IMG/VR virus record: IMGVR_UViG_3300030110_000659
Span: 30,453 to 51,806 of that record
Reading direction: 5' to 3' (one strand)
Length of the DNA stretch: 21,354 bases
Source: a virus
This document shows positions 10,368-21,063 of the stretch, piece by piece (positions within the stretch are counted from its first letter, which is position 1; every line of letters begins with the position of its first letter). The position numbers and the translations under genes are program-made. The notes below the pieces were generated by a model. That model saw only the letters and a program-made list of their open reading frames with translations. It was not told the origin of the DNA and did no database searches.

Positions 10368-10576
10368 TATATCCTCCTATAAAGTTTAGGCTTGCTTATA
10401 AGCTAAACATTATCACATAGAGGCTGTTTGTTTTCTAGGGTGCATATTGTTATTAGTTGGCCTACCAATAACGTTATGGGCCTATACTTGAACAGGTAAG
10501 TCTTACGTATTGTTTAGTTTTAGATTTGGTAGTTTATTATTAGGTAGACCCAATGGGCGGCTAATAATGATTATAC
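10368..10576 (-). other. Long structured 5' leader of the capsid gene
   Basis: About 200 nt separate the predicted start of transcription from the capsid ATG, with no open reading frame longer than about ten codons. The stretch holds several inverted repeats on the minus strand: GGGTCTA (10551-10545) paired with TAGGCCC (10484-10478), a near-perfect palindrome around CATAACGTTATTG (about 10464-10479), and a strong hairpin at 10384-10408 next to the ribosome binding site. I recognise no known riboswitch or tRNA in it. Confidence 0.5.
10384..10408 (-). promoter_or_regulatory. Hairpin directly upstream of the capsid ribosome binding site
   Basis: On the minus strand GTTTAGCTT pairs with AAGC-C-TAAAC: a nine-pair stem with one bulged C and the loop ATAAGC. 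It ends only five bases before AGGAGG (10378-10373). Such a hairpin could protect the 5' part of the capsid mRNA, keep the ribosome binding site single-stranded, or modulate initiation. The role is inferred. Confidence 0.55.
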
Positions 10577-10581
10577 CTATA

Positions 10582-10609
10582 GTTATACCGTATTAATTTT
10601 ATTTGTCAA
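10582..10609 (-). promoter_or_regulatory. Sigma70-like promoter P2 for the capsid gene
   Basis: On the minus strand a perfect TTGACA (10609-10604) is followed after 16 bases by TATAAC (10587-10582) within the shared core GGTATAACT; a second possible -10, TATAAT, lies at 10575-10570. It starts eight bases past the scaffold stop codon and so sits at the right place to boost capsid expression over scaffold and terminase. Confidence 0.65.
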
Positions 10610-10616
10610 CAGTATT

Positions 10617-15935: not shown

Positions 15936-17516
15936 TTAATAACCAAACGTTGAATCTGCAACCTGCATACTTCTTTTAGGTGGACCCATAGGATCATAAT
16001 CAAATATGCTAAACCTTGGTCTTGACATGATACCATACCGTAAAGCATCGTACAAGTGGTCTTCTGATGTAGTATCTATATCCTCTGGATTTCTTTTGTC
16101 AATAGGTAGTGCAGGTAGTTGAGAAATTAAATTTGTACAGTTTTCAAAAAATACTAATCTAGGTTCTTCTGTAAACTCATCTATCTGTAAACGCCTGTGT
16201 ACTTCATTCTTTCCTGATACTCTTGATCCTCTTGATCTATCAGATGGTCGCCACCTGCAACCTCTCATAATCATTTGCTCTGCTAGGCTAGGGCCAGTAT
16301 CTCCACGTTTATGCCACAAACTAGAATCAAGTACACCATATTTAATATTACCGTCACCTGCTTCTAGTTCTAGTATCATATCAGCTAAATCTGTAGCAAG
16401 AACTTTACCTACATATAATTCTCTATACACAATTAACTTTTCGTCAGGAGATACAGCAAACCAGACTACACCAGACTTACTTCCGTATCCATAGTCACAT
16501 GCTCTAAACTTTACCCAGTTACTAGGTATATCATATGGTTCTACTACATGTACTTTTCTGTCAAACTCAGTAAAAGCTGCACCTTCTTTAATATCCCAAT
16601 CACCATCTAGTAACTGTCTTCTTTGTTGTTCTGGTAGTGACAAAAGCATTGCTTCATAGTCACCTTGTTCTGCTAAGTAAGGATTGTCGGAAAGACGGGC
16701 AGGTATAAACCTACGTTTGAATAAAGATTTACCAGCTTTGGAGTGTCCAGCAGGATAGCGTAGTACCTCACTTGTTTCAATATCTGTTGCCTCAAAAGCT
16801 GTTCCGTATGCAGCAGGATCAATAAACATTTTTTTAACCCAATGATGTCCTCTTCCTCCTGGGTTAGTAGTAGCTCTCATATATACAGGCAAGTCGGGTG
16901 CAGTGGACCGTAGACGTGATCTCATATAGTTCCACGAAAAAGGTGTGGGCCATTGAGTCAACTCATCAAAGCCTATCCAGCTAAACGCTAGACCTTGGTA
17001 GCGCAGGACATCATCTTCCCTGTCTAGGTAGGACATCCACAACCTCGCACCAGAGGGCGCAGTCCACTGCATCTTACGTTCTGACCATTTAATTCCAGGC
17101 CATATCTTAGGGTACATTTCTTGTGACTTAAAGATAAGTTCCCTTAGTTCTTCCGTAGTATGCCGTAGGAGCAATCCTGAGAAGGCTGGATGGCCCATAA
17201 AGCGTAATGGGTCTGCAAGCATAGCGTAGCTCTTTCCACCACCTGCACTGCCTCCAAATAGTACCTCACGTTCACCTGCAGCTAGGAAGTCTGTCTGGGG
17301 GCCAGCATTCGGTTTAAAGATAATGTTATGTTGTTCTTCAACTGGTGCAGTGTACGTAATAGTAGGCTCTATATCAGGCTGCGTTTTCTTGCGTGTTGTT
17401 GTTTTCTGTTGCACCGAGCCTTGTGCTTTCGATTTCTTCCGCTTTGGCGATTGCCTTTTTCGCATAGTCTGCCCATTTGCGTAGGCTTCCAGCTTTGTTT
17501 TTGCGTCTTCGCTCAT
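15936..17516 (-). CDS. terL: Terminase large subunit (packaging ATPase and nuclease)
   Basis: 526 aa. The ATPase half has a Walker A-like GGSAGGGKS (88-96), Walker B WIGFDE (180-185) and the coupling motif ATTNPGG (215-221). The nuclease half has the acidic residues expected of the RNase H-like fold: D341 in CDYGYG, D397 in VLDSSLW, and D486/D490 in EDHLYDALRY. It forms the packaging motor with TerS and portal. The first 47 codons lie inside the upstream gene and encode a very basic, low-complexity tail (RKRQSPKRKKSK); the conserved protein begins near residue 63 (HNIIFKPNAGPQTDFL). The ribosome binding site at this ATG is weak, so the true start is not certain, but no other ATG occurs between codon 18 and codon 99. 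Confidence 0.95.
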   Translation of the reverse strand: MSEDAKTKLEAYANGQTMRKRQSPKRKKSKAQGSVQQKTTTRKKTQPDIEPTITYTAPVEEQHNIIFKPNAGPQTDFLAAGEREVLFGGSAGGGKSYAMLADPLRFMGHPAFSGLLLRHTTEELRELIFKSQEMYPKIWPGIKWSERKMQWTAPSGARLWMSYLDREDDVLRYQGLAFSWIGFDELTQWPTPFSWNYMRSRLRSTAPDLPVYMRATTNPGGRGHHWVKKMFIDPAAYGTAFEATDIETSEVLRYPAGHSKAGKSLFKRRFIPARLSDNPYLAEQGDYEAMLLSLPEQQRRQLLDGDWDIKEGAAFTEFDRKVHVVEPYDIPSNWVKFRACDYGYGSKSGVVWFAVSPDEKLIVYRELYVGKVLATDLADMILELEAGDGNIKYGVLDSSLWHKRGDTGPSLAEQMIMRGCRWRPSDRSRGSRVSGKNEVHRRLQIDEFTEEPRLVFFENCTNLISQLPALPIDKRNPEDIDTTSEDHLYDALRYGIMSRPRFSIFDYDPMGPPKRSMQVADSTFGY

Positions 17517-20343: not shown

Positions 20344-20532
20344 TCACGATTTGTATCCTCCACCTGCGGCCTTATAAGCCTTAGCTAACATCTGGGCTTT
20401 ACGTGCAGACCATTGACCTGCACCTCCACCCTTAGTTCCTGCTTTAATTCTGCTAAATATACGTTTACGTTTTGCTGGTTGTGTATAGTTACCAGCTTTA
20501 TTGACCGTAGACTTTCCTGTAGATTTCGCCAC
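20344..20532 (-). CDS. Small basic conserved phage protein (GQWSARKAQ...GGGY type)
   Basis: 62 aa, very basic, starting at a GTG. A TAGGAG element lies six bases before it. The first half is flexible (KSTGKSTVNKAGNYTQPAKR) and the second half holds a compact motif: KAGTKGGGAGQWSARKAQ, MLAKAYKAAGGGY. The WSARKAQ and GGGY elements are a recurring signature of short phage proteins of unknown function. The start lies inside the upstream DUF1127-like gene (35-base overlap, different frame), so translation of the two is probably coupled. Confidence 0.75.
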   Translation of the reverse strand: MAKSTGKSTVNKAGNYTQPAKRKRIFSRIKAGTKGGGAGQWSARKAQMLAKAYKAAGGGYKS

Positions 20533-20641
20533 GAGATACTCCTATATCTTTTAGCTCCATGTCAGTCATATTTTGCAACTGCCACAAAGCCACTTTCTTT
20601 TGTTGACTTTTTTGAATAAACTTTATAAGTTTTTTAAACAT
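20498..20641 (-). CDS. DUF1127-like small protein, first gene of the late unit
   Basis: 47 aa. The N-terminal half is basic (MFKKLIKFIQKSQQKK), followed by the DUF1127 signature: LQNMTDMELKDIGVSRGEIY at residues 22-41, in which the D-x-E-L-K-D-I-G-[hydrophobic]-S-R pattern is complete. Proteins of this family are short, Arg/Lys-rich and common in alphaproteobacteria; members in Agrobacterium and Rhodobacter have been linked to RNA turnover and metabolic regulation. AAGGAGATA stands seven bases before the ATG, and promoter P3 lies about 45 bases further up. The gene overlaps the start of the next one by 35 bases. A phage copy could bind RNA or alter host gene expression; that function is inferred. 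Confidence 0.8.
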   Translation of the reverse strand: MFKKLIKFIQKSQQKKVALWQLQNMTDMELKDIGVSRGEIYRKVYGQ

Positions 20642-20687
20642 ACACTATCTCCTTTTTGTTATGTCAGAGATAGTTATATCACAGTTA

Positions 20688-20716
20688 GTTATACCATACT
20701 ATAGATAATAATGCAA
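20688..20716 (-). promoter_or_regulatory. Sigma70-like extended -10 promoter P3
   Basis: On the minus strand TTGCAT (20716-20711) is separated by 17 bases from TATAAC (20693-20688), with TGG before the -10 (TATGGTATAACT). A second TATAAC lies 15 bases further down (20678-20673). The -35 box shares its first two bases with the foot of the preceding hairpin. It is placed to drive the DUF1127-like gene and the lysis/packaging genes that follow. Confidence 0.6.
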
Positions 20717-20742
20717 CCCCGATATGCATTTATATCAGGGTT
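20715..20742 (-). terminator. Hairpin terminator after the 103-aa gene
   Basis: The minus-strand RNA forms an 11-bp stem (AACCCUGAUAU with AUAUCGGGGUU) around a six-base loop (AAAUGC), including one U-G pair that would be a C-A mismatch on the other strand. It starts nine bases after the stop of the upstream gene. No U run follows on this strand; on the plus strand a run of seven T does follow, so it might also stop any rightward transcript. Confidence 0.55.
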
Positions 20743-20751
20743 ACACTTTTT

Positions 20752-21063
20752 TTATGATAGTACTACTTTAATAGTTACGTTGTCACTAGTAGCTGCTAAG
20801 ATGTTCATTATAACAGCATCACCAACAGCGTCAGGTATTGCAAGAGTGTAATTACCTGCCTCTAGTTCTAAATCATTAGCACCACAGTTTGCCTCTGCAG
20901 CACCAAAGTTAATTAAAAACTCTTGGTCAGCATGAAGGTGTACAACTTTAAAGCCAGTGCAGGTAAAATGTGCAGTATTACCTGCAGTATTATCTATGGT
21001 TGCTTTTGTTTGTACACTCCATCGTAACGTATTAGGTTGGAATGTGCCTACGGAAGTTGACAT
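20752..21063 (-). CDS. Small beta-rich structural-like protein
   Basis: 103 aa. The sequence alternates hydrophobic and polar residues (FTCTGFKVVHLHADQEFLIN, GANDLELEAGNYTLAIPDAV, NILAATSDNVTIKVVLS), suggesting a small beta-sandwich of the kind found among phage virion proteins. No signal peptide or membrane helix is present. AGGAGG stands eight bases before the ATG and the gene follows another beta-rich gene after only 14 bases, so the two are cotranscribed. The hairpin at 20715-20742 ends the unit. No family is recognised. Confidence 0.7.
   Translation of the reverse strand: MSTSVGTFQPNTLRWSVQTKATIDNTAGNTAHFTCTGFKVVHLHADQEFLINFGAAEANCGANDLELEAGNYTLAIPDAVGDAVIMNILAATSDNVTIKVVLS

Follow-up and report, generated by a model that had tools for sequence, protein, structure and literature searches.

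A predicted Shine-Dalgarno hairpin and a conserved promoter precede a DUF1127 gene in HMO-2011-type roseophages

A short reading frame stands just before the terminase and portal genes of a marine podovirus, and it raises two questions: whether it is a real gene, and from which RNA its protein would be made. We studied it by computation in a stretch of 21,354 nucleotides (the window), which corresponds to positions 30453-51806 of a 57,078-base virus record (IMGVR_UViG_3300030110_000659). The features discussed below are listed in Table 1.

Table 1. Features of the DUF1127 locus, in window coordinates
Feature	Position	Strand	Evidence or remark
Upstream gene, 103 aa, same strand; possible source of read-through	20752..21063	-	
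Terminator-like hairpin with weak T tail, after the upstream gene	20710..20747	-	not above shuffle expectation
Conserved upstream box GCATATCGGGGTTGC, consensus GCATAACGGGGTTGC	20713..20727	-	CGGG and the T downstream hardly vary across 84 leaders
P1 -35-like element TTGCAT, overlaps the box	20711..20716	-	sequence
P1 -10-like element TATAAC, extended TGGTATAAC	20688..20693	-	box+29/30 in 49/84 leaders; 17 nt from TTGCAT
P2 -10 element TATAAC, extended TGATATAAC	20673..20678	-	44-47 nt 3′ of the box in 84 leaders
Hairpin left arm, overlaps P2 -10, ends at the predicted start	20665..20680	-	fold predictions
Shine-Dalgarno sequence AAGGAG	20649..20654	-	sequence
Hairpin right arm, contains the Shine-Dalgarno sequence and AUG	20639..20653	-	duplex and fold predictions; arm covariation across phages
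DUF1127 gene, 47 aa, ATG start	20498..20641	-	Pfam PF06568 match, slot conservation, dN/dS
Next gene, 62 aa, PHROG 17747; GTG start within the DUF1127 gene, 35-nt overlap	20344..20532	-	
Large terminase gene (Terminase_6N), downstream landmark	15936..17516	-	

Identity and ancestry of the 47-codon gene

Translation of the frame gave the product MFKKLIKFIQKSQQKKVALWQLQNMTDMELKDIGVSRGEIYRKVYGQ. The signature D-x-E-L-K-D-I-G-x-S-R, for which the first-pass annotation had singled the frame out, was found in it letter for letter as D-M-E-L-K-D-I-G-V-S-R, and the Shine-Dalgarno sequence (SD), located 8 nt 5′ of the ATG, was rightly called strong. A Pfam profile search bore out the proposed DUF1127 membership, with 29.9 bits against PF06568 (E 4.8e-7; gathering cut-off 23.3), the aligned part being only profile positions 17-37, the C-terminal half. 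Relatives of the protein scored 30.5-36.9 bits, and in several of them most of the profile was aligned. NCBIfam gave no match above its cut-off for the protein, and PHROG 26566 matched it weakly.

DUF1127 proteins contain about 14% Arg (PMC12501420). The window protein has 2 Arg and 8 Lys among its 47 residues, with a net charge of about +6 by residue count, and so lacks the high Arg content, which is typical of DUF1127 and lies outside the profile definition. The sequence QQRR is present in many of its relatives. Compared with the nearest non-identical viral relative, the gene had 7 synonymous and 2 nonsynonymous changes (dN 0.018, dS 0.34, dN/dS ∼0.05), and the pooled pN/pS over 92 pairs was 0.30. 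As judged from these substitutions, the gene is under purifying selection, in agreement with a coding frame. The frame is a real DUF1127 gene, as first observed, and a further member of a known family. It shares with YjiS of Salmonella and E. coli, CcaF1 and the small Agrobacterium proteins the C-terminal core D-x-E-L-x-D-I-G-[IV]-x-R, a length below 75 aa, a basic character and a helical fold. Unlike the bacterial proteins it is phage-borne, belongs to a distinct clade and is rich in Lys instead of Arg.

The gene had also been described as acquired from the host. In a tree of 88 short sequences and 60 columns, which is a guide only, the DUF1127 proteins of HMO-2011-type phages formed one clade (98/95 support) that included one long-branched bacterial sequence and was not nested among the sampled Rhodobacteraceae copies. 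This tree suggests one old phage clade and speaks against a recent acquisition from a roseobacter host. The four Rhodobacteraceae genomes examined had two to five DUF1127 copies of their own. DUF1127 genes with 44-49 bits to PF06568 were also seen elsewhere in unrelated alphaproteobacterial phages, namely SIO1 and CRP-5 (Zobellviridae) and phiM12 (Emdodecavirus) (L276, L277 and L279); the gene is unannotated in SIO1. Since these genes stand at other places, alphaproteobacterial phages may have acquired the family more than once.

The slot before the terminase genes

The window showed nucleotide similarity to the Roseobacter phages CRP-13, CRP-1 and CRP-345 and to HMO-2011, which makes it an HMO-2011-type marine podovirus. 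Its SU10-type portal and adaptor genes and its Terminase_6N gene agree with membership in this group. The DUF1127 gene is followed on its 3′ side by genes for an endolysin-like protein, the small terminase, the Terminase_6N large terminase, the SU10-type portal, the capsid and the SU10-type adaptor. From the distribution of the gene, the host of the window phage is probably a roseobacter.

Homologues were found by tblastn in ten HMO-2011-type roseophages, each with a non-coding gap before the gene and terminase genes after it. CRP-9, which was not detected by tblastn, has a gene with 33.6 bits to DUF1127 in the same slot. All 11 HMO-2011-type roseobacter isolates examined (CRP-1, -2, -3, -9, -13, -207, -212, -235, -345, -603 and -738) carry the gene in this slot, 5′ of the terminase genes, and the homologues there have 43-64% identity. 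Neither the gene nor the leader described below was found in HMO-2011, whose host is a SAR116 bacterium, by tblastn or by locus and pattern search. A search of viral contigs for the gene gave 80 loci. Wherever the large terminase gene (terL) could be located with a DUF1127 gene (153/153 loci), it was downstream on the same strand, with a median distance of 1.5 kb; of the 113 loci having more than 4 kb of downstream sequence, 111 have it there. The slot is conserved, which the first-pass annotation had proposed to check. Its placement of the gene at the head of a lysis/packaging unit holds for packaging, with the gene first after the promoter and before terminase and portal, but the lysis half is variable: only 22 of the same 113 testable loci have an endolysin homologue downstream.

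In deposited genomes the homologues are mostly annotated as hypothetical proteins, and the name DUF1127 appears only in CRP-603. The CRP-13 gene (L003 5001-5162) is unannotated and overlaps the start of the small terminase gene. In CRP-1 (L005 2954-3232) and CRP-345 (L008 3842-4108) the protein is about 30-40 residues longer and has an identical SWRQYIYSKLGWELHKANHA tail. Two viral contigs, L028 and L053, have a DUF1127 gene without the upstream box and without packaging genes downstream, and apparently come from other phage types. In contig L012 (1676-2273) the upstream ORFs encode low-complexity repeats rich in ARGG/KKKGM, and the contig has short N runs here.

The layout of the DUF1127 gene and the 62-aa PHROG 17747 gene suggests that the two are translationally coupled. 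The SD of the second gene (ATAGGAGTATCTCGTG, within 20498-20550, minus strand) consists of codons of the conserved DIGVSR core of DUF1127.

Upstream box and predicted promoters and hairpin of the leader

About 3.7 kb of further same-strand ORFs lie 5′ of the leader, followed by a divergent region. Read-through is thus a realistic problem, and the intervening terminator looks weak. The hairpin after the upstream gene is without a clean T-run, and terminator-like matches in the region were rarer than in shuffled sequence (3 observed, 6.3 expected). Of the terminator-promoter junction described earlier, the terminator is the doubtful half. The promoter is backed by conservation: in 84 of 85 non-redundant leaders the box GCATAACGGGGTTGC was followed by a -10 element (TATAAC, TATAAT or TAAAAC) 44-47 nt after the AxCGGG of the box. 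In the window this -10 belongs to promoter P2, with a predicted transcription start at about 20666. P2 is without a clear -35 element, and the extended TG is present in only 49/84 leaders. A second promoter further upstream, P1, has a -10 with a TTGCAT-like -35 in 49/84 leaders. A simple consensus scan listed neither P1 nor P2 because its rule requires T at the final -10 position, which here is C.

The exact box pattern occurred as one copy in 10 of the 12 gene-carrying genomes (the window record and the 11 isolates), and CRP-235 and CRP-212 have variant boxes. A reversed-pattern control of box and -10 gave zero matches in the genomes scanned, and the box is also absent from HMO-2011. In viral contigs the exact box was found in at least 129 places and at least 103 distinct contexts. 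A DUF1127 ORF lay no more than 700 nt 3′ of it in 103/103 distinct contexts among the matches listed. The conserved box 5′ of the -10 is most likely an activator binding site. None of 101 bacterial genomes from the family to which an Amylibacter genome belongs contained the box/leader pattern, a further difference from bacterial DUF1127 genes. For this reason the idea that promoter and gene had been lifted together from the host was dropped.

The SD of the gene is predicted to be hidden. In 78/85 leaders at least three of the four SD core bases were in a stem with upstream sequence. The predicted unpaired probability of the SD core was 0.09 in the 85 leaders and 0.48 in 118 other genes (p 9e-25, a value that overstates independence because the leaders are related sequences). 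These control genes came from CRP-13, CRP-1, CRP-738 and the window, and one SD-core rule was used for all genes. After the upstream sequence was shuffled, the predicted probability was 0.45. No Rfam family was found in the leader at gathering or relaxed thresholds.

Stronger evidence comes from exchanging the arms and from the two geometries described below. Because loop lengths vary too much for a formal covariance model, we swapped arms between phages instead. Own arms paired at a mean of -14.4 kcal/mol and swapped arms at -10.4 kcal/mol (permutation z -14.3). The pairs flanking the SD core are A-T, T-A, G-C or C-G, depending on the phage; as tabulating them involves a selection of pairs, the fair comparison is that of swapped arms. 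By this comparison of sequences the hairpin arms covary across phages.

The covariation also bears on another reading, in which the inverted repeat or the box serves as an operator on the DNA or as a pac/cos signal for packaging. In its favour, the box is present as one copy per genome near the terminase genes, and part of it is palindromic. However, the arm sequence differs between phages while complementarity is kept, the loop length varies widely, and the fixed spacing is that from box to -10, which is promoter-like. We consider an operator or packaging signal very improbable.

With a promoter of the sigma-70 type, transcription is expected to begin at position +12 from the start of the -10. 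The predicted SD accessibility was 0.08 for RNA starting 30 nt 5′ of the -10, 0.12 for a start at the -10, 0.19 at +6 and 0.46 at +9; it reached a peak of 0.68 at +12/+13 and was then lower again. P2 RNA was predicted to be more open than read-through RNA in 83/84 leaders, and RNAs started at P1 stayed closed (0.05). In the window the predicted values were 0.01 for read-through RNA, 0.01 for P1 RNA and 0.92 for P2 RNA. The predicted accessibility of P2 RNA was still below 0.5 in 20 of the 84 leaders, though above that of read-through RNA in nearly all. The left arm overlapped or preceded the predicted start, and was never wholly 3′ of it, in the 85 leaders. CRP-235 and CRP-738 have another geometry, in which the -10 of the promoter sits in the hairpin loop, and the left arm is again excluded from P2 RNA. 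That two geometries give one outcome is hard to explain without selection.

We propose that read-through RNA from the genes upstream, like RNA started at P1, would fold the hairpin that hides SD and start codon, so that the DUF1127 protein would not be made from it. Since the P2 -10 lies in or after the left arm, P2 RNA would be without this arm and its SD would be exposed. Translation of P2 RNA would then make the DUF1127 protein the first product of the head/packaging operon, and a transcription activator would bind the box. The conserved promoter-hairpin module, missed by the first-pass annotation, argues that production of the protein is held back until one particular promoter becomes active. 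We think it fairly likely that this small, basic, three-helix regulator is made only from one local promoter, probably a late one. We infer that P2 is active and late, that the silencing occurs in cells, and that the protein tunes host physiology through RNA turnover or through sensor kinases such as PhoR.

The hairpin might instead be an mRNA-stabilizing or RNase-processed 5′ structure. RNA would then start at P1, just 5′ of the stem, and the structure would protect the late operon RNA or be cut to free the SD. P1 (TTGCAT-17-TATAAC) is indeed near the sigma-70 consensus where it is present. But in the 35/84 leaders from which P1 is absent, hairpin and P2 are kept, the stem of CRP-235 and CRP-738 spans a long loop holding the -10, and a left arm that ends at the predicted P2 start is left unexplained. 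A stabilizing or processed structure is therefore an unlikely account of the hairpin.

It is also conceivable, though quite improbable, that the hairpin is a switch worked in trans by a factor of phage or host origin, for which the DUF1127 protein is a candidate, and that this factor binds the box or the leader RNA and controls translation. The constant association of box and DUF1127 gene in the contexts listed would fit, as would CcaF1, an RNA-binding DUF1127 protein with an effect on the RNAs of its own operon (PMC12501420, PMC10253847). However, the box would be 5′ of the P2 start and thus absent from P2 RNA, its fixed spacing to the -10 fits a DNA site, and box and gene may merely be co-inherited.

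Possible role of the protein and comparison with known systems

An AlphaFold model of the protein (pLDDT 84; structure-model alignment of the window and viral loci only) has three helices, at residues 2-23, 27-32 and 37-45. Among solved structures no relative of the protein was found, either by sequence or by fold search of the PDB, so the model names no function. Published work on DUF1127 points in two directions, to the binding of RNA (CcaF1) and to the binding of sensor kinases (PhoR, SsrA) (PMC12501420). CcaF1 of Rhodobacter sphaeroides binds RNA and alters RNA turnover (PMC10253847), whereas other DUF1127 proteins bind PhoR in Agrobacterium and E. coli and SsrA in Salmonella (PMC12501420, PMC11707872). 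The role in RNA turnover and host takeover that had been suggested for the phage protein is plausible, and binding to PhoR or another sensor kinase is an equal rival.

One form of this rival, compatible with any reading of the leader, is that the phage protein acts on host phosphate signalling via PhoR and not on RNA. PhoR is bound by DUF1127 proteins of alphaproteobacteria and E. coli, and those of several species can stand in for one another (PMC12501420). In addition, one of the proteins of CRP-13 has been annotated as phosphate-starvation-inducible. Late expression, however, would be an odd time for changing phosphate uptake, and we regard an action on phosphate signalling as possible but rather unlikely. 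More tentatively than the leader mechanism itself, one may picture activator box, promoter and anti-read-through hairpin as a lineage-wide lock on a protein that would switch host RNA turnover or two-component signalling late in infection and whose early production would be harmful.

The leader resembles those of T4 genes e, soc, 49 and I-TevI, where translation occurs from locally started RNA while early read-through RNA stays silent (PMC3014915, PMC2988022). Common to both, though predicted here, are an SD held in a stem in read-through RNA and a local promoter in the left-arm region, which yields local RNA without the left arm. The T4 genes belong to unrelated phages, and the marine podovirus leader would work alike without being homologous. 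The T4 late promoter TATAAATA was not found; with TATAAC/T or TAAAAC as -10, the roseophage promoter is not of the T4 late type. Unlike T4, the roseophage leader has an upstream box at a fixed distance. The genes controlled in T4 encode lysozyme, capsid decoration and homing endonuclease proteins, whereas the roseophage gene encodes a host-like regulator. In Sinorhizobium meliloti, the duf1127_1 leader acts by uORF-dependent transcription attenuation (PMC12218461). There too an RNA leader with pairing to the ribosome binding site controls a DUF1127 gene, but the uORF and premature termination decide, while in the roseophages we propose that the promoter of origin of the RNA decides.

The roseophage leader is a known control principle in a new form, within an abundant group of phages unrelated to T4, whose promoter-in-hairpin logic it would extend. 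In a published description, HMO-2011-type phages are dominant and widespread in the ocean (PMC9038755). Gene, slot and leader module are common to the window and the 11 isolates, CRP-1 to CRP-738. Our literature search, whose coverage was incomplete, found no discussion of a phage DUF1127 gene and no published account of gene timing in HMO-2011-type phages; the published descriptions of HMO-2011-type roseophages that we checked do not mention promoters or DUFs. The 110-nt module is a concrete candidate for a late promoter with its activator site. Its constant place before the same host-like regulator, among the matches listed, is ground for thinking that the timing of the protein matters. The leader also narrows the purpose of the protein: its production would be useful when directed by one local promoter, probably a late one, but not when directed by read-through RNA. 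A debated family, RNA binder or kinase binder, thus gains a new functional context, and cultured phages and hosts exist for the group.

Two other leaders were seen on the minus strand of the window. At 207-273 there is a second promoter of like design, TTGCAA-17-TGGTATAAC, in which TAACTC overlaps the -10 and could base-pair with GGAGTTA, the Shine-Dalgarno arm of the gene that follows; the SD accessibility predicted for this gene was 0.26 in read-through RNA and 0.66 in RNA from the local start. At 10368-10616 a 249-nt leader precedes the capsid gene; a promoter close to the consensus (TTGACA-17-TATAAC) lies far upstream in it, and several hairpins are possible.
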